A stretch of DNA of 30,936 nucleotides, taken from positions 1-30,936 of the IMG/VR virus record IMGVR_UViG_3300022925_000111. One strand, 5' to 3'. How positions within the stretch are numbered: the first letter of the stretch is position 1; every line of letters begins with the position of its first letter. The stretch is from a virus. The position numbers and the translations under genes are program-made. Positions 3,526-29,000 of the stretch are shown here, in pieces. The notes below the pieces were generated by a model. It searched no databases and was not told the DNA's origin. It saw only the letters and a program-made list of their open reading frames with translations.

Positions 3526-5035
3526 TTTTTAATTCTGCCTCCAAATTTGCTAACACTTCATCATTCTCATCAAATGAGTTATCATCTGCTTCAGTAACTT
3601 CCTCTTCGAACAAACTTTGGAATAATTTGTTATTACCATCTTTATGAGGATTATTGTTTAGTGCTTCTAAGAATAATGTTGCTTCGTCGAGTAGTCCGTG
3701 TGGGTCTTCACTAGCAAAAAGTTCTTGTACGAAAGTATTAAAGTATAGAATGTTTCTAGGAACCCATTGACTAAACTCTTTACTTTTATCATTTCTTTTA
3801 ACTCTTTCCCAATTTCTCCAATCTGGCTGATACTCTTGCATTTCAATTAATGCTAATTGATTTGCTCTCTGAACTGCTCTGATGTGCATATAAACATTGT
3901 GTATCATTAAAATACCGTATGTAAAACTATCCCAACTTGTTTTACCTTCTTTACCAATTTTGTTTAACATACCAGGCTTGTACCAGTTTACATCTTTAAC
4001 TTTTGTTCTAAGACCAATTGGACTTTCAAAAGGAAATGGTAAATCTCCAATATTTTCACTATTAAGTTTGTTATCAAAACATTTGTCCATTAAGTAACTT
4101 TGTCTGTCTGCACTTAATACAGTTTGTGAGTAAACTAAACCATTTGCACTACTGATAAACGGACTTGCACTATCAAAACTAATAGTAATATTAGGATTAA
4201 TCTTTCTAAGTTCTCTTTGAATCACAGTAAACATTACTGCCCAATCCAACTTACTTGTACCAAGATAATGTATCCAATCTTTACCTTCAATTTTACCTTC
4301 ATCTCTCATCACAATAAGACGTTTGAGACACATCTTCATATCTCTCATATGGTTACCACCCATTGCCCACCCTTCAAACGGATAGTCTTTTACTGCGTCA
4401 TACCATATACTAGCATCTTCCCAATGTGTGCCTTGCAACACATTTAAGAATTTTGTTTTGCCTTGTCTGTGTTGTACAAAGAAATCATTGTTGTGTAATG
4501 TACATTTTAAACATTCATCAAAATCTTTAAGTCCTGTACGTTCCCTTAGTTCAGGCTTACTTGCCCAACTAGGTACATCAAGTGTCATACTCCAATCTGC
4601 TGTATGCTCTAACCAGTTTAAAATTTTGTGTCTAACTTTGTCAGCATCACCTTTGTATCCAGGATCGCCAGGCTTTTCAAAAAAGTTCTCCCAGTCGAAT
4701 TTAATAACACCTTTACCAATTTGGAAACCGCCTGAGTCTCCTAGTATCATAGTGTTTTCTCTATCACGTTTTTGAATAATGTATTCTAATTCGTTACTTC
4801 TGTCTATGTCTAAGTAGGCGTGTCCTGCCGAGTATAAACCCATATTATACTTAAAGTAACCTTTGTCATAGTCTAAAAAGTTTAGACCTTCAAAGCCGTG
4901 TTCGAAGCCTTCTGGAATCCTACCTTCAGGGATATAGCCTTCTATATGTTTACATCTGCCAAGCAGTTCTGTATAGAAACCACTAATAGCAGGCAAATAG
5001 ACTGCTGAATCACCTATGTGTTTGGATAAATCCAT
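3518..5035 (-). CDS. dpdA: DpdA-like DNA 7-deazaguanine transglycosylase (TGT superfamily)
   Basis: The 505-aa protein has the hallmarks of the tRNA-guanine transglycosylase fold: LGDSGGFQ at 98-105 (the first catalytic Asp and base-binding loop), LDVPSW at 152-157, VLQG at 199-202, GWAMGG at 222-227, HYLGTS at 256-261 and FDSASP at 287-292, equivalent to the TGT FDCVxP nucleophile motif. The zinc site (CxCxxC...H) of bacterial TGT is absent and the C-terminus is long and acidic, which fits phage DpdA rather than tRNA-modifying TGT. DpdA enzymes exchange guanine in DNA for a 7-deazaguanine such as preQ0, which protects against restriction. AAGGAG lies 5 nt before the start. No queC/D/E or folE genes occur in the window, so the base must come from elsewhere or from the host. 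A tRNA-directed TGT-like role is the alternative. Confidence 0.8.
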   Translation of the reverse strand: MDLSKHIGDSAVYLPAISGFYTELLGRCKHIEGYIPEGRIPEGFEHGFEGLNFLDYDKGYFKYNMGLYSAGHAYLDIDRSNELEYIIQKRDRENTMILGDSGGFQIGKGVIKFDWENFFEKPGDPGYKGDADKVRHKILNWLEHTADWSMTLDVPSWASKPELRERTGLKDFDECLKCTLHNNDFFVQHRQGKTKFLNVLQGTHWEDASIWYDAVKDYPFEGWAMGGNHMRDMKMCLKRLIVMRDEGKIEGKDWIHYLGTSKLDWAVMFTVIQRELRKINPNITISFDSASPFISSANGLVYSQTVLSADRQSYLMDKCFDNKLNSENIGDLPFPFESPIGLRTKVKDVNWYKPGMLNKIGKEGKTSWDSFTYGILMIHNVYMHIRAVQRANQLALIEMQEYQPDWRNWERVKRNDKSKEFSQWVPRNILYFNTFVQELFASEDPHGLLDEATLFLEALNNNPHKDGNNKLFQSLFEEEVTEADDNSFDENDEVLANLEAELKNA

Positions 5036-21697: not shown

Positions 21698-22168
21698 TTA
21701 TACTTTCTCGAGACGTTCCATTAAACGTTCAGCACGGTTAGTAACTTGTTTATACCAACGACTATCTCTACCCTCTTTGGCGGCTTCTTTCCAATCTTCT
21801 GCTAAAATACCGGCGTGCATTTTCTTAAATTTGCTTAATCTCGTTCTGCCCATATTAAACATCATATTGACTAGAATTTGTTGTACTTCATCTGGTAAGT
21901 CTCCAAATACTCCTTCTTCATATAGAAGTTCGCATTCTGCTATTGCTGTATCTAAATCTTTTTCAAAACATTCTTTTACTCTTTCTTCCGATACAGGAGT
22001 ACCGACTTCTTGTCCGTATTCAGGATCTGATTCTAAAACCAAATGCCCAACACCAAAAGTTGGATATCCAAGATGGTCCAAGTAGATTTCATTTACTACT
22101 CCTTCGTCTATTTTTAGTTGTTCAAAAACTGCTTCTCTATCCAGTTTTGTATCTTTTCTAAAAAACAT
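21698..22168 (-). CDS. e: T4-type lysozyme (GH24 endolysin)
   Basis: The 156-aa protein aligns by eye with T4 lysozyme (164 aa): LKIDEGVVNEIYLDHLGY then PTFGVGHL gives the catalytic triad Glu22, Asp31 and Thr37. INMMFNMG-type (VNMMFNMG), SRWYKQ and NRAERLM match the C-terminal lobe. It hydrolyses the MurNAc-GlcNAc bond of peptidoglycan. It lacks a signal peptide, so it needs a holin for release, unless it is virion-associated like the gp5 lysozyme domain. AAGGAG precedes the ATG by 5 nt, and the ATG overlaps the TAA of the upstream gene. Confidence 0.93.
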   Translation of the reverse strand: MFFRKDTKLDREAVFEQLKIDEGVVNEIYLDHLGYPTFGVGHLVLESDPEYGQEVGTPVSEERVKECFEKDLDTAIAECELLYEEGVFGDLPDEVQQILVNMMFNMGRTRLSKFKKMHAGILAEDWKEAAKEGRDSRWYKQVTNRAERLMERLEKV

Positions 22169-22899
22169 TATTTCTCCTTAAAATCGTTAAAAAGTATTGC
22201 TTTTGTTACTACATCTATTTTGTTTCCAAGACTCAATGTAACAATACCTAAATCTTTTTTATCATTTACATACAGTATTCTTTTTGTTCGCCAACCCCTA
22301 TATGTGTCTGAAAAATACTCTTTTTTGCCACACCTTCCACCTAATCTACTAAGGCAAGACGCAAATCTTTTTTTACTTTGTATTGCTTTATCAGACTTTT
22401 TATTATAATATTCTGCTGTAAATTCAATTTTATATCTATATTTATTTAACCATAGGTTAGGACGCAATGCAACTTCGGTATCTTGCAATACTTCTGCTTC
22501 AAATTCTTCTCTTGGGCCACAGACACGTTTTGTAAACTTATAAAAATTATTAACAAAGTCTACACAATGGTCTGCTTTGGCAAACCATATAGTTCTGTCT
22601 TTTTCCCAACGTTGCCTGTAAATTTCGCATCCGTGTTCAAACCAATAATCAGGTTCTTCTAAATATTTTTCTTTACACCATTTAGCAATAAGATGATGTA
22701 TAGTAGTTAGTGCGTGGTCTTCGTTGTTGTGCAAAAATGAATCATAATCTCCTTCCTCTTCGCCTGTTATACTATTGATTATAATTCTACTGCCATCAAC
22801 AACTACTTTGTATGGGTAATGTCCATATTCCTTTTTGTACATAGGTTCTATGGGTATACCTTTTAAAATAAATCCGATTGGTGTAATTTGATTAGACAA
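22168..22899 (-). CDS. Protein of unknown function (243 aa)
   Basis: This soluble, basic and aromatic-rich protein starts with TTG at 22899: GGAG lies nine nt upstream and the start overlaps the clp stop by eight nt. Recognisable features are a Trp/His/Cys-rich stretch (EEPDYWFEHGCEIYRQRWEKD) and a C-terminal beta-rich part (WRTKRILYVNDKKDLGIVTL). Five cysteines (ACW-like KWCK, HGC, DHC, RVC, SCL, RC) could bind metal, but no standard motif is seen. It is placed between the ClpA-like unfoldase and lysozyme and should be co-expressed with them. I do not recognise a family and assign no function. Confidence 0.68.
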   Translation of the reverse strand: MSNQITPIGFILKGIPIEPMYKKEYGHYPYKVVVDGSRIIINSITGEEEGDYDSFLHNNEDHALTTIHHLIAKWCKEKYLEEPDYWFEHGCEIYRQRWEKDRTIWFAKADHCVDFVNNFYKFTKRVCGPREEFEAEVLQDTEVALRPNLWLNKYRYKIEFTAEYYNKKSDKAIQSKKRFASCLSRLGGRCGKKEYFSDTYRGWRTKRILYVNDKKDLGIVTLSLGNKIDVVTKAILFNDFKEK

Positions 22900-25054
22900 T
22901 TACAAAATCTCCGTCTCTGTAATCCACAACAAAGTCACGGTTTTCTGCTTCTTCGTAAATAATCTTTTTACTGAGTGGCTTTTTAATTTTTTCTTCGAAT
23001 ACTCTTTTTAACGGTCTAGCACCCATTGTAGGCTCGTATCCTGCTTTGGCAATTTCATCTTTAGCAAGTGAAGTAAATACTATCCTAACATTTTTATCAT
23101 TGCTGGTTAATAAGTCATTGGTTTCATCTATAAGTCTTTCTATAATCATATACATTTGTTCCATACCCAACTTATTAAATTTAACAACTGAGTCAATCCT
23201 ATTTCTAAACTCTGGTGTAAAGAAACTTTTAACTGCTTTGATATCAGTATCTTTCTTCTTTTGATCCCCGAAGCCTACTTTAAGTTTTTCACTATCAGCG
23301 GCTCCTAAGTTACTTGTCATCAACAATATAGTATTATTAAAAGAAACTGTTTTACCCGTACTACCTGTAAGTCTACCATCGTCCATAACTTGTAATAATA
23401 TTTGCAATACTTCTGGTGCGGCTTTTTCTATCTCATCAAGTAATAAAATACAATTAGGATGTTTTTCTACTTCTGATAACAAAAGACCTTGTCCTAGTTC
23501 ACCTTCTGCGTGACCAACATATCCCGGAGGAGCACCAATTAATTTACTTACACTATGCCTTTCCATATACTCGGACATATCAAACCTTACTAGTTCGACA
23601 TCTAAACACTCAGAAAGTCTTTTTGCTGTTTCTGTTTTACCAACACCGGTTGGCCCTACTAGTAAATAAGAACCAATAGGTTTGTTGTGTTCTCTTAGTC
23701 CTGCTTTGCTCACAAGTATACTTTCTACCATTACATCAATTGCTTCGTCTTGTCCAAACACTTTGTCTTTAATCCTGACGTCTAGTGTTTTATAACTGTC
23801 TTTTTGCGAAATATCTAGCATATCTTTACTTACTTTAGATATTTTTGCAACTTGTTGAAATACATTATCCATAGTAACAGCAGGATTTTTATCTAACTTG
23901 CTAACAGCACCTGCTTGGTCTAGCACATCAATTGCTTTGTCGGGTAATGCTTTATTTTTGATGTATTGCTCTGATAAAGTAACAATCTTTTCTATGGTTC
24001 CTTCTTCGTATATCACTCCGTGAAAATCTTCAAACAAAGGTTGCAACCCTTTACAAACTTCAATAGTGTCTGGAATATTCATCGCTGAAACTTCAAGTCT
24101 TTGAAATCTACGCATTAATGCTCTATCTTTTTCGAAACTGTTTGCAAATTCATCTGGTGTAGTGGCACCAATAGTTTGAAGTTTGCCTTTGCCTAACACA
24201 GGTTTTAAAATGTTAGCAACATCTAAACTGCTACTACCTGCACTACCGGCACCCATAATTTGATGTATTTCATCTATAAATAATATAACATCATCTCTAC
24301 CTTCTAATCCTTCGAGTACGTTCTTCATACGTTCTTCGAAGTCTCCTCTAAACTTAGTACCAGCAACCATTGAGCCAATATCTAAATTGTAAACTTGTTT
24401 GCCTTGCAAGGCTTCGGGTATATCTTTGTTTACAATTCTATAAGCAATACCTTCTGCAATAGCAGTTTTACCTGTTCCTGGTTCCCCAACTAGCACACAA
24501 TTATTCTTTTTACGTCTAGCAAGTACTTCTACTACTTCCCTAACTTCTTCGTGTCTTCCAATTAGTGGGTCAACTCCGCCGTCTAATACTTCTTGATTTA
24601 GATTTTTTAGGAAACTGGCATCTAACTCGCCCTCGCCTGCTTCATTGACAACTGCGTTCACTAACACAGTTCTGTTTACATTGTTTGCTTGTAAAAAATA
24701 ACCTGCGTGGCTTTCTTTTTCACTACATAGACTAATCAACACATCTATTTCTGTAATTTCTTCTCTGCCTGTGAACACAACTTGAGTAAATGCTCTTTGT
24801 AGAACTCTTTCAACAGATGTAGTAGGTCTAGGCGTACCTGTGCTACCGCCATCACTTTTAAGTCCATTGTAGTCAGTATTGTTGAGATATTCTTCTAAGT
24901 CTGAATCTAATGTTTTTAAATCTCCACCAACACTCATACACAACTGTCTAACAGATTCGTTTTTCAAAAGAATAAAAAGAATATGTTCCAAAGTAACATA
25001 CTCGTGACTTCTGTTTTGTGCTTCTGAACTTGCTGATGATACAATATGTTCCAT
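22892..25054 (-). CDS. clpA: ClpA-like AAA+ unfoldase
   Basis: The start at 25054 (MEHIVSSASSEAQN) gives a normal Clp N-domain and has AAAGGA upstream; the longer frame to 25156 runs through dnaJ. The 720-aa product has an N domain (1-145), D1 with Walker A GEPGTGKT (190-197) and Walker B VILFIDE (256-262), and D2 with Walker A GPTGVGKT (467-474) and Walker B CILLLDE (535-541). The long coiled-coil M domain of ClpB is absent, so it is ClpA/ClpC-like. LKVGFGDQ (591-598) sits where ClpA carries its IGL/IGF loop for docking ClpP. No ClpP is encoded here, so it may deliver substrates to host ClpP. It lies 22 nt after dnaJ. Confidence 0.92.
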   Translation of the reverse strand: MEHIVSSASSEAQNRSHEYVTLEHILFILLKNESVRQLCMSVGGDLKTLDSDLEEYLNNTDYNGLKSDGGSTGTPRPTTSVERVLQRAFTQVVFTGREEITEIDVLISLCSEKESHAGYFLQANNVNRTVLVNAVVNEAGEGELDASFLKNLNQEVLDGGVDPLIGRHEEVREVVEVLARRKKNNCVLVGEPGTGKTAIAEGIAYRIVNKDIPEALQGKQVYNLDIGSMVAGTKFRGDFEERMKNVLEGLEGRDDVILFIDEIHQIMGAGSAGSSSLDVANILKPVLGKGKLQTIGATTPDEFANSFEKDRALMRRFQRLEVSAMNIPDTIEVCKGLQPLFEDFHGVIYEEGTIEKIVTLSEQYIKNKALPDKAIDVLDQAGAVSKLDKNPAVTMDNVFQQVAKISKVSKDMLDISQKDSYKTLDVRIKDKVFGQDEAIDVMVESILVSKAGLREHNKPIGSYLLVGPTGVGKTETAKRLSECLDVELVRFDMSEYMERHSVSKLIGAPPGYVGHAEGELGQGLLLSEVEKHPNCILLLDEIEKAAPEVLQILLQVMDDGRLTGSTGKTVSFNNTILLMTSNLGAADSEKLKVGFGDQKKKDTDIKAVKSFFTPEFRNRIDSVVKFNKLGMEQMYMIIERLIDETNDLLTSNDKNVRIVFTSLAKDEIAKAGYEPTMGARPLKRVFEEKIKKPLSKKIIYEEAENRDFVVDYRDGDFVIV

Positions 25055-25076
25055 AATACTATTTAATTCCTTTATC

Positions 25077-25859
25077 TTATTTGTATTCTTTAAACTGATT
25101 TCTGTACTGTTCCAGTAATTTTCTTTGTTCTTCGGTAACGTTTTTAGGCACAGCAATATTTACTATAATGTACAAATCGCCTACTCTACTGTTTTGTGGA
25201 TTTACGAATCCTTTTTGCGATAATCTTATTTTAGAATCGTGTTGTGTACCTGGAGGAACTTTAACTTCATATACTTTGTTATCTAAATTTCTAATTTCTA
25301 TTTTCCCACCCAATATAGCATCTATTACATCTACACTCATTCTAGCATACAAGTCGTCTCCTTCTCTTATAAAAGTATTAGAACGCCTATAAGTAATTTG
25401 TACTAATAGGTCACCGCCTGGTTTAAACTCTGGAAAATTTAAACTTGCTCCGTTTGGAAATCCTTTAGGAATATTTAATTCTAATTCTTGTCCGTCGACA
25501 TTAATAATTTTGTGACAACCTAAATATGCTTCTTGTATATCTATTTGTACTGTTATCTGAAAACGTTGTCTATAGTTTCTATTTGCTCCTCTGCCGCCAA
25601 ATATATCACTAAAAGCATCACTGAAAATATCGCTGAAAGGATTTTGTCCACCGCCAAAGCCTTGAAAAGGACTAGGATTATCGTATGCTTGTTTCTTTTG
25701 TGGATCACTTACTGTGTCATATGCTTCTTGTATCTTTTTAAACTGTTCAGCATCTCCTCCTTTGTCAGGATGGTGCTTACTCGCAAGTTTACGATATGCC
25801 TTTTTAATCTCTTGTGGAGTGGCATTTTTAGATATGCCTAACGTTTGATAATGATCCAT
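25077..25859 (-). CDS. dnaJ: Type II DnaJ/Hsp40 co-chaperone
   Basis: The 260-aa protein begins with a complete J domain ([23 protein letters not shown] at 30-32), followed by a Gly/Phe-rich linker ([17 protein letters not shown]). The C-terminal substrate-binding region follows directly ([47 protein letters not shown]). The four CxxCxGxG zinc repeats of type I DnaJ are missing, so it is CbpA-like and shorter than host proteins. The HPD motif should activate host DnaK. Its sigma70 promoter lies directly at the start codon, and clpA follows, suggesting a paired phage proteostasis module. Phage assembly or disabling of host factors are plausible roles. Confidence 0.95.
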
Positions 25860-26620: not shown

Positions 26621-27070
26621 TTAATCTTTCTTAGAATTGAAGTCCACCGGTTGAAAATCTTTATCAGTAAATGACTTAGATGTCTTATCGTCTTTTTTTT
26701 CTACTTTGGGTTCGTAATATTCTTTATATGCTTTTAATTGTGCTACTAGTCTAACTATTTGATTTCTTAGTTGTACATTGTTTTTTTGTAGCAACTCATA
26801 ATCTTCATCTGTTAAAGAAAACAACACAGGATCTATGTTTGCTTTTTTAAGTTCTGCAAACACTTCTTCTTGATTACCTTCGGTGAGTATTTTCCAATTA
26901 ATTTGCTCTAATTCTACCACAGGAGGTAATTCTAAATCTAATCTTATACGTTCGACCTCAGTTGTCATAACCTGTAATGGTTTAGTAGTACTACACCCAC
27001 TAATAAGGAACGTAATTAGGATTGGCAATGTTAGGGCATTCAGCATTAATTTCTGACTTCTTAGTTGCAT
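26621..27070 (-). CDS. Outer-membrane spanin lipoprotein (Rz1-like)
   Basis: The 149-aa protein has a lipoprotein signal peptide ending in a lipobox (ITFLISGCSTT; Cys26). The mature part is charged, with a helical LQKNNVQLRNQIVRLVAQLK segment able to form a coiled coil. GAGGAG precedes the ATG at 27070. The gene begins inside the 3' end of the i-spanin frame (71-nt overlap), the classic Rz/Rz1 architecture. Together the pair should bridge the periplasm and fuse inner and outer membranes in the last step of lysis. It is longer than lambda Rz1, closer to T4-like o-spanins. The call rests on lipobox, overlap and partner. Confidence 0.82.
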   Translation of the reverse strand: MQLRSQKLMLNALTLPILITFLISGCSTTKPLQVMTTEVERIRLDLELPPVVELEQINWKILTEGNQEEVFAELKKANIDPVLFSLTDEDYELLQKNNVQLRNQIVRLVAQLKAYKEYYEPKVEKKDDKTSKSFTDKDFQPVDFNSKKD

Positions 27071-27485
27071 TTAATTCCTCCTCTGTTAGTGGCGAGCCTT
27101 GTGCTATCTCAAAACACCTTGCTCGTTGTTTTTCTCTTCTACCTTCTATGATTTCTATACTTCTAGGTTTTTGTACTGCTAAGTTTCCAATATCTCTTCT
27201 TTCTCCCGAAGCATTTACTTTGTTAAACTTTTCGTTTGCGGCGTTTAAGTCACCTTGTAATTTTTCATTATTTTCTTGTAATTGTTTGTTGATATCTCTG
27301 ATTTGTGCAATATCTTTTAATTGTTGCTCGATAACTTTTTTCTGTTCAGCAACAGCACCCTCTAACTTTTCATTGTTGAGTTTTAGAATTTCGTTCTCTG
27401 ATTGCAAATGTTTGACATACATAAGTCCTCCCATTGCGCCAAGGACTGCTATACCCATTATGATTAATTTAATTTGGCTGAACAT
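27000..27485 (-). CDS. Inner-membrane spanin (Rz-like)
   Basis: The ATG at 27485 gives 161 aa: MFSQIKLIIMGIAVLG starts a single N-terminal membrane anchor (about 5-24), followed by a long coiled coil (about 28-95: QSENEILKLNNEKLEGAVA, QKKVIEQQLKDIAQI, NKQLQENNEKLQGDL). The periplasmic tail ends with CFEIAQGSPLTEEEL and CPNIANPNYVPY, with two cysteines that could link dimers. An alternative TTG start lies nine nt upstream. It overlaps the ACP-like gene by 17 nt at its start and the lipoprotein spanin by 71 nt at its end. Function: the inner half of the spanin bridge in lysis. Confidence 0.85.
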   Translation of the reverse strand: MFSQIKLIIMGIAVLGAMGGLMYVKHLQSENEILKLNNEKLEGAVAEQKKVIEQQLKDIAQIRDINKQLQENNEKLQGDLNAANEKFNKVNASGERRDIGNLAVQKPRSIEIIEGRREKQRARCFEIAQGSPLTEEELNATKKSEINAECPNIANPNYVPY

Positions 27486-27702
27486 TGGACTCAACTAACT
27501 TAATAAGGTCGCCCACAGTTTTTACATCTAGTATTGCTTCTTCGTCTAAAGAAATGTTTAATTTTTCATCAAGTGCTATGCTAAGTTCAACTAAGTCAAA
27601 CTCATCACCACCTAAGTCGTCTATAATGTGTGTATCGTCATCATTTAGTATCGGTAGATTACCAAAATGTCCTGACAAGACTTCTAGTACTGTGTCTCTC
27701 AT
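27469..27702 (-). CDS. Acyl-carrier-protein-like protein lacking the phosphopantetheine serine
   Basis: The 77-aa acidic protein has the ACP four-helix pattern: MRDTVLEVLSGHFG, a loop, DDLGGDEFDLVEL (residues 28-40), ALDEKLNISL, then DEEAILDVKTVGDLIKLVE. The diagnostic ACP motif is DSL at the start of helix II; here it is DEF, with Glu34 in place of the serine that carries 4'-phosphopantetheine. The DNA (GATGAGTTT) is unambiguous. It therefore cannot be a normal acyl carrier and may act as a decoy or structural partner of enzymes that bind ACP. Its ATG overlaps the TGA of the upstream gene by four nt. Confidence 0.85.
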   Translation of the reverse strand: MRDTVLEVLSGHFGNLPILNDDDTHIIDDLGGDEFDLVELSIALDEKLNISLDEEAILDVKTVGDLIKLVESNVQPN

Positions 27703-28463
27703 TTTCTTCTCAAGGTTAAAATATTATCGGAACCTGTTTTACTTAGTGCTACAACATCTGTACTTAATTTGTTTACGGACCAATTACGTCCTAAACTGTA
27801 CTGAAGTTTATTGTCTTCTATGTTGTTTACCAATATTGGTTTGTGTGCATACTCGTCAAGAACCGCTTTACCAAAGTTAAGCATTTCAAAAGTTTGCTTT
27901 CCATTGGACGATGAAAATTCTAAAATATTATTTTCCATTCCTAACTTGTTTATGTAACTGTCTTTTATAAAGTTCACTACATCTAATTTTTCTTGTTCCA
28001 CTTTTTTATCTTCCTGTGCTTTTGTAAATTCTTCTTTGGTCATATATTGTGACGGATCTTGTATAATAAAAGAGCCTAATGCTGGATCGCTTATTTTATA
28101 AGAGTCTTCTGCAAAATAACTTTTAACATCATAGTCTTTTAGTCCTACTAAATTTTCTATGTCTTCTACTATCTTTTTTAATTTTGTTAAAAAATCTTCG
28201 TCTCTTTTCATTTCGATAAAAACTAAGTGATGTCCGTCATCATCTGGATTAGGACTTGTTTCTACATCTAATGTTTCGTATGCACCTGTTTCTATAAATT
28301 GAGTAAGGTCCTCTGCAGGTTGCTTTTCTGTCATATATAATGCAGTAACGATTACGTCTTTTGCTTCGCCTGTTTTAGGATTGAATTCATCAATACTAAT
28401 TCTTGGGACCATAAGTTCTTTAAGGTCACCGTGTTGTAAACTATATCTACTGTCCAATGGCAC
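27699..28463 (-). CDS. Putative virion-associated protein of unknown function (254 aa)
   Basis: The start is GTG at 28463 with AGGAGA seven nt upstream; it overlaps the previous gene by 17 nt. The soluble protein has an N-terminal beta-rich part (DLKELMVPRISIDEF, then DVIVTALYMTEKQP), a region GHHLVFIEMKRDED, a charged helical stretch (YMTKEEFTKAQEDKKVEQEK), and a C-terminal beta-rich domain (NILEFSSSNGKQTFEML ending NILTLRRK). No enzymatic motif is seen. Together with the preceding 178-aa gene, and under a late promoter, it is probably a structural or assembly protein of the virion. Not recognised further. Confidence 0.65.
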   Translation of the reverse strand: MPLDSRYSLQHGDLKELMVPRISIDEFNPKTGEAKDVIVTALYMTEKQPAEDLTQFIETGAYETLDVETSPNPDDDGHHLVFIEMKRDEDFLTKLKKIVEDIENLVGLKDYDVKSYFAEDSYKISDPALGSFIIQDPSQYMTKEEFTKAQEDKKVEQEKLDVVNFIKDSYINKLGMENNILEFSSSNGKQTFEMLNFGKAVLDEYAHKPILVNNIEDNKLQYSLGRNWSVNKLSTDVVALSKTGSDNILTLRRK

Positions 28464-28983
28464 CTGTATCTCCTGTTGGTTCTACTGTATCTTCTAATGC
28501 TGGAATATCATCTGCACCAGCGGCTTTACTCATTGAATATTGAATAATATCATCTTTGACATCTTCTATAAACTTGCGTGGCATCTTGATGTTTACTAGC
28601 CAAATAGGACTTTCGTCAATTTTGCTTCTTCTAAAAATTCTACCATTTCTAGTAACTGTTTCAAAATCTTCAGGCGTTTTAACACGTCTTGCGGATTTAA
28701 ATATATCTTCTGTCCATTTAATTTTACAATCTTTTAATAACAGTCTTTCTACAGCACTTGGATCAGGCATAGACTTTTTGTCATACATTAGTGTAACATC
28801 AACCCAATATCTATCTATATTAGGTCCCTCAACAACAATACCTTTACTCCAATTCTTATAGGCATAAAGGTTAATTTTATCTAGTACGTCTTCAAACTCA
28901 ATTAAAAGGTCTAACATTCTGTTATCTTCGTGTAGATTTTTAACTGTTTGATTTAGTAATAAAGTGTTGTATTCTTTAGGCAT
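28447..28983 (-). CDS. Putative virion-associated protein of unknown function (178 aa)
   Basis: I choose the start at 28983 (MPKEYNTLLLNQTVKN): GGAG lies 9 nt upstream of it and the late promoter at 29001-29009 would start transcription near 28996, so the ATG at 28998 would lie at the very 5' end without an SD. The 178-aa product has a helical N-terminus (NRMLDLLIEFEDVLDKINLY), a mixed central domain (KGIVVEGPNIDRYWVDVTLM) and a low-complexity tail (EDTVEPTGDTGAIGQ). It is the first gene of a late operon that includes the ACP-like and spanin genes. I do not recognise the family. Confidence 0.7.
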   Translation of the reverse strand: MPKEYNTLLLNQTVKNLHEDNRMLDLLIEFEDVLDKINLYAYKNWSKGIVVEGPNIDRYWVDVTLMYDKKSMPDPSAVERLLLKDCKIKWTEDIFKSARRVKTPEDFETVTRNGRIFRRSKIDESPIWLVNIKMPRKFIEDVKDDIIQYSMSKAAGADDIPALEDTVEPTGDTGAIGQ

Positions 28984-29000
28984 AAATTTTTTCTCCATAA

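Follow-up and report, generated by a model that had tools for sequence, protein, structure and literature searches.

A phage acyl carrier protein homologue with an acidic residue at the phosphopantetheine site, encoded next to spanin genes

We describe a phage acyl carrier protein (ACP) homologue in which the serine that receives phosphopantetheine (PPant) is replaced by glutamate, and whose relatives carry glutamate or aspartate at the same site. Its gene lies in the window, that is, the whole stretch of 30,936 nucleotides analysed here (positions 1 to 30,936 of the IMG/VR virus record IMGVR_UViG_3300022925_000111), and this 31 kb record is probably a fragment. By sequence and predicted fold, the protein is a true ACP homologue. 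Since its attachment serine has given way to an acidic residue, it is, as judged from its sequence, a conserved and permanently unmodified ACP that is never phosphopantetheinylated. It very probably works without a prosthetic group, and carriage of acyl groups in vivo would be excluded in principle by the absent serine. The residue that defines an acyl carrier is thus missing, with Glu34 here and Glu or Asp in the relatives; therefore, the label “functional ACP” should be avoided for this protein.

The gene, its product and its surroundings

The open reading frame (ORF) runs from position 27702 to 27469. Residue 34 is encoded by GAG at 27603-27601 and aligns with the PPant serine of ACPs, so that DSL has become DEF. 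In Pfam, the ORF matched PP-binding (PF00550) only (E=6.2e-7, 30 bits against a curated cut-off of 20.8), and in PHROGs it matched phrog_5934, a phage “acyl carrier protein”. An AlphaFold2 model with 27 family members as input reached a pLDDT of 92.5 and predicts the four helices of the ACP fold (residues 2-13, 34-48, 54-58 and 63-73). The top PDB matches to this model in Foldseek were bacterial ACPs, the first being H. pylori apo-ACP (TM 0.84, 1.6 Å), and a non-ACP fold was ruled out by the model and these matches together. An earlier note, made from the sequence alone, had read the ORF as an ACP homologue with DEF in place of DSL; both the domain match and the predicted structure bear this out.

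Bacterial AcpP (PF00550) is among the closest known systems. It shares with the window protein the fold, the length, the helix-II pattern D-x-Phi-D-x-x-E, a TV motif before helix IV and a strong negative charge. In contrast to AcpP, the window protein has Glu for Ser36 (Asp in relatives) and, on this reading, no phosphopantetheine, and it is phage-made and encoded in a lysis cassette. The helix-II acids are retained in the family as D33, an acid at 34, D36 and E or D at 39, and the second acidic cluster of ACPs (E47/E48) is eroded in some members.

Table 1. Features of the window in and around the block containing the serine-less ACP gene.
Feature	Coordinates	Strand	Basis and remarks
Serine-less ACP gene	27469..27702	minus	77 aa, net charge -15, pI about 4.05; Glu34 at phosphopantetheine site
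Inner-membrane spanin (Rz-like)	27000..27485	minus	PHROG 739 E=2e-12; ATG overlaps ACP gene end by 17 nt
Outer-membrane spanin lipoprotein (LISGC lipobox)	26621..27070	minus	PHROG 812 E=3e-8; start within inner-spanin gene
Virion structural protein directly upstream of ACP	27699..28463	minus	PHROG 13138 E=5e-24; 4-nt overlap with ACP gene
Virion structural protein	28447..28998	minus	PHROG 12928 E=1e-39; conserved in jumbo phages PA5oct, RaK2-like, SCTP-2
DnaJ-like co-chaperone, downstream, member of conserved cluster	25077..25859	minus	Pfam, synteny
ClpA/B-like ATPase, downstream, member of conserved cluster	22892..25156	minus	Pfam, synteny
Phage lysozyme (putative endolysin or baseplate lysozyme), same block	21698..22168	minus	Pfam PF00959, PHROGs 13211/7

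The gene is followed by a two-component spanin cassette, the inner spanin first and then the overlapping outer-spanin lipoprotein (Table 1). Farther downstream come a weakly GidB-like possible methyltransferase, DnaJ, the Clp ATPase and the lysozyme, and on the upstream side the two virion proteins are followed by a divergent PhoH gene. The cluster PhoH/virion/virion/DnaJ/Clp is that of jumbo myoviruses, PA5oct and SCTP-2 among them, in which it occurs without an ACP.

Two further observations may be added. The lysozyme shows 87-94% identity in relatives whose adjoining proteins share only about 30-60% (e.g., L023-L033), pointing to recent exchange or to an unusual constraint, and the inner spanin is likewise better conserved than its surroundings. 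Gene 75 of Salicola phage SCTP-2 (L178 5064-6671) encodes a PhoH-like protein of 535 aa that seems to be interrupted past its LPG motif by an intein-like insert ending in HNT.

Relatives, gene order and selection

The gene order of the window is kept in 16/16 close relatives from IMG/VR, and so is glutamate, as DEF or DEY; the relatives’ contigs are metagenomic and fragmentary. Since the DEF-containing peptide used in the first searches could bias the result, the searches were repeated with a DNA pattern in which the serine codon is free, and also with the inner spanin as bait. The bait led to 80 loci, in which the ACP was sought by HMM. It adjoins the spanins in 30 of them, 28 times directly before the inner spanin and twice after the outer spanin, and was not found by HMM in the remaining 50; the ACP is thus not a constant part of the spanin cassette. 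All 28 distinct ACPs directly upstream of the inner spanin have Glu or Asp at the site (DEF, DEY, DEI, DDF, DDM). P or S occurs in those located behind the outer spanin, and A in a close relative. In the alignment of homologues, which had been set beforehand as a refuting test, the serine is not kept, and a substitution confined to a single genome is ruled out by the Glu/Asp in relatives.

The ACP gene overlaps that of the inner spanin by 1, 8, 11 or 17 nt wherever the start of the latter is identifiable. In more distant loci with an ACP, the genes run from a virion protein through an endolysin (GH108 plus PG-binding, or with PG_binding_1) and, in most cases, a small Cys-rich ORF to the ACP, the inner spanin and the outer spanin. 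Where a locus has no ACP, the position immediately preceding the spanin is taken by the endolysin, by the Cys-rich ORF or by a putative small membrane protein, and the ACP is absent at this place in HTVC008M, SCTP-2, PA5oct and Va1. In a related branch, it lies between a virion protein and a T4-gp15-like tail sheath stabiliser gene. Among named phages, the window protein had only weak matches. Both spanins named in the earlier note are confirmed by PHROGs, and the link to them is stronger than was noted there, as relatives place the ACP between endolysin and inner spanin. Its phrase “a carrier that cannot carry” is likewise supported by the conserved acid, and neither a phosphopantetheinyl transferase (PPTase, PF01648) nor a second PP-binding protein was found in ten related contigs, which are possibly fragments.

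Several small ORFs of these loci may be recorded separately. The Cys-rich ORF, about 40-50 aa long, lies between endolysin and ACP/spanin in many marine phages (L206 3641-3799 and similar loci) and carries the motifs C-x-N-C-G-x-E-x-H-E-G and D-G-D-x-K; one that was tested had no PHROG match. A conserved putative membrane protein of ~55 aa directly before the inner spanin (L192, L198, L201, L221, about 3820-3998), with the motif KDRVKE-SSWSGA-LI-G-I-L-GP, is a candidate holin. The inner-spanin homologue of HTVC008M appears as a two-piece match over two annotated ORFs, gp145/gp146 (L179 4550-5083; NC_020484.1 117049-117582), which suggests a frameshift or a sequencing error in the record.

Among close relatives, dN/dS is 0.06-0.27. 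In a tree of 28 representatives, built with the trait column left out, E and D were exchanged at least 8 times and changes between acid and non-acid occurred 2 times; the negative charge, not the mere loss of serine, therefore appears to be under selection.

Serine-less ACPs across viruses and cells

The pattern DLG[AG]D-x-Phi-D-x-[VIM]-[DE], with the serine codon free, was run on viral contigs and cellular genomes. Among the matches listed, 109 viral ACP homologues comprised 93 with S, 8 with E, 4 with D and one each with P, A, L and G, so that D or E accounts for 12/16 of the non-Ser viral ACPs listed. The identical pattern returned Ser in 116/116 cellular ACPs, and the acid at this site is thus beyond chance (Fisher p about 5e-6 for the difference in Ser, with relatedness ignored and the viral set taken among the matches listed). 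When all of IMG/VR was scanned for the acidic form, 75 stretches matched, some of them from Kuttervirus-type phages and others on several unrelated contigs, and the cultured phage Lu11 has Asp at the serine site. A bacterial origin of the acidic form was considered and rejected, as the acidic pattern had no match in 397 Pelagibacterales-order genomes or 385 Alphaproteobacteria genomes. A large ACP tree gave 14 acid changes by parsimony, a count of independent Ser-to-acid events that is indicative only because these short proteins provide few columns and deep nodes are weak; a single origin of the acidic form may be compatible with the strongly supported branches.

At the serine site, the “acyl carrier protein” of Ackermannviridae carries Asp or Glu in the Salmonella and E. 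coli phages examined, Kuttervirus-type examples being L458 6356-6688, L279 and L118. Compared with the window ACP, that of Kuttervirus (e.g., SH19 gp096) shares the Asp/Glu but belongs to another branch, has an N-terminal extension and a VWA-protein neighbour, and lies about 3 kb from the annotated spanin. An ACP near spanin-like genes in jumbo phages has been reported previously (PMC7760394). Pectobacterium phage CBB gp163 and Erwinia phage pEa_SNUABM_12 00158 are ACP-domain genes immediately ahead of the inner- and outer-spanin genes, as in the window, but in both of them DSL is intact and the protein is extended by about 60 residues at the N-terminus. As a side observation, pEa_SNUABM_12 00159 (L462 45579-45944), which directly follows the ACP gene, has an N-terminal membrane segment and a 4-nt overlap with the o-spanin gene; it is likely the inner spanin, which its authors reported as not observable.

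Possible roles and what they mean

Our best explanation as a whole, held tentatively and a little short of probable, is that of an obligate apo ACP-fold protein acting as a late decoy of host ACP-binding lipid enzymes; the host-enzyme decoy, taken as a mechanism, we regard as a possibility to be held with some doubt. The ACP would be made late, together with lysis and virion proteins, and would remain cytoplasmic. Its acidic helix-II face (Asp33, Glu34, Asp36, Glu39), the docking surface of ACPs for host enzymes, is retained, and the carboxylate may aid docking by supplying the negative charge that the phosphopantetheine phosphate would otherwise provide. Such a permanent apo-ACP mimic would compete with host acyl-ACP on membrane-lipid enzymes of the PlsB/PlsX/Fab type, with the consequence that, before lysis, phospholipid supply and membrane repair would be stopped or fatty-acid resources freed. 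We favour a host-directed decoy on two grounds: the acidic form recurs in unrelated phages, and the gene itself is optional and changes its place among the late genes, as fits a host-directed accessory gene.

Apo-ACP is described as a potent growth inhibitor acting via glycerol-3-phosphate acyltransferase (Keating et al., 1995, as cited in PMC3896788 and PMC4736557), and the engineered obligate apo-ACP S39A suppresses growth when overexpressed (PMC4736557). This mutant and S36T, which in E. coli is unmodified and does not support growth (PMC3340395), are unmodifiable like the window ACP, but they are artificial and have a neutral residue instead of an acid. MukB is stimulated equally by apo- and holo-AcpP (PMC8602292), whereas SpoT reportedly fails to bind apo-ACP (PMC3896788) and ACP S36T no longer binds IscS (PMC13343975). 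Given these mixed effects, a permanent apo mimic would act on some host partners and not on others, and the loss of binding by IscS and SpoT once the serine is changed or unmodified counts against the decoy, as does the erosion of E47/E48 in part of the family. Of the earlier interpretation, the non-carrier and the spanin link hold, while SpoT as a decoy target is unlikely because of its reported failure to bind apo-ACP.

Other evidence against a decoy fits a structural role. ACPs of other phages occur in virion proteomes, being listed in virion mass spectrometry of Eneladusvirus, the genus of pEa_SNUABM_12 (PMC7760394), and, by one peptide, of Kuttervirus Sajous1 (PMC10892097). The overlap with the inner spanin and the recurrence beside spanins in CBB and SNUABM_12, where serine is kept, suggest a link to lysis beyond late timing alone. 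The ACP fold could then serve as a small, acidic module that binds a phage protein, comparable to apo-ACP on MukB; the partner might be the endolysin, a small lysis protein, or a virion or assembly factor, and the ACP may be packaged or time lysis. We regard this as the main rival, though rather unlikely. The strict overlap, the place between endolysin and spanin, the tail-sheath stabiliser adjoining it in another lineage, and the many PDB complexes in which ACP is a subunit speak for it. However, most of the 80 relatives, as well as SCTP-2 and HTVC008M, have spanins without the ACP, the inner spanin has few cytoplasmic residues, and a dedicated lysis or virion part would hardly be expected to be optional, or to lie now ahead of the inner spanin, now behind the outer spanin and now next to the stabiliser gene. 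Moreover, there is no tight co-evolution of ACP and spanin, because the ACP diverges faster (about 48% identity against 72% for the spanin).

An unreactive ACP might also occupy the host phosphopantetheinyl transferase AcpS and block maturation of host ACP. AcpS docks on the same conserved helix-II face, and AcpS-ACP complexes are among the structural matches (4dxe), but any non-serine residue would suffice for such inhibition, yet it is the acid that appears selected; we consider it improbable. A decaying auxiliary metabolic gene, drifting without function, could be read from the S, P and A at the site in one branch (after the outer spanin and close kin), but is very improbable in view of the purifying selection indicated by dN/dS, the intact predicted fold, the acid-only site across deep divergence and the wide distribution. 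A working ACP modified at another residue or via an unusual linkage is barely credible, as AcpS needs Ser, S36T behaves as described above and a phage PPTase was not found in the ten related contigs.

The usual description of phage ACPs is that of fatty-acid or auxiliary metabolic genes. About one in seven viral ACPs among the matches listed lack the key serine, mostly with an acid instead, and that description therefore cannot be right for them; the ACP shape seems to be kept by the virus for a purpose other than fat synthesis. No prior report of serine-less phage ACPs was found in our search of the open-access literature, and there we likewise did not find the conserved acidic replacement, the inner-spanin overlap in the marine group or the recurrence in several phage lineages. 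It is conceivable, though unlikely, that phages have repeatedly made ACP into charged, prosthetic-group-free mimics that seize ACP-binding host enzymes at lysis, with Glu/Asp replacing the phosphopantetheine phosphate; this would amount to a general strategy for attacking membrane lipid synthesis, so far hidden under the annotation of an auxiliary metabolic gene. In this family, obligate apo-ACPs occur naturally, under selection and tied to lysis genes, and the acidic form is present in cultured phages (Kuttervirus, Lu11). It thereby becomes a testable question whether host phospholipid synthesis is blocked before lysis by apo-ACP mimicry, or whether the ACP fold serves as a module of the virion or the lysis machine.
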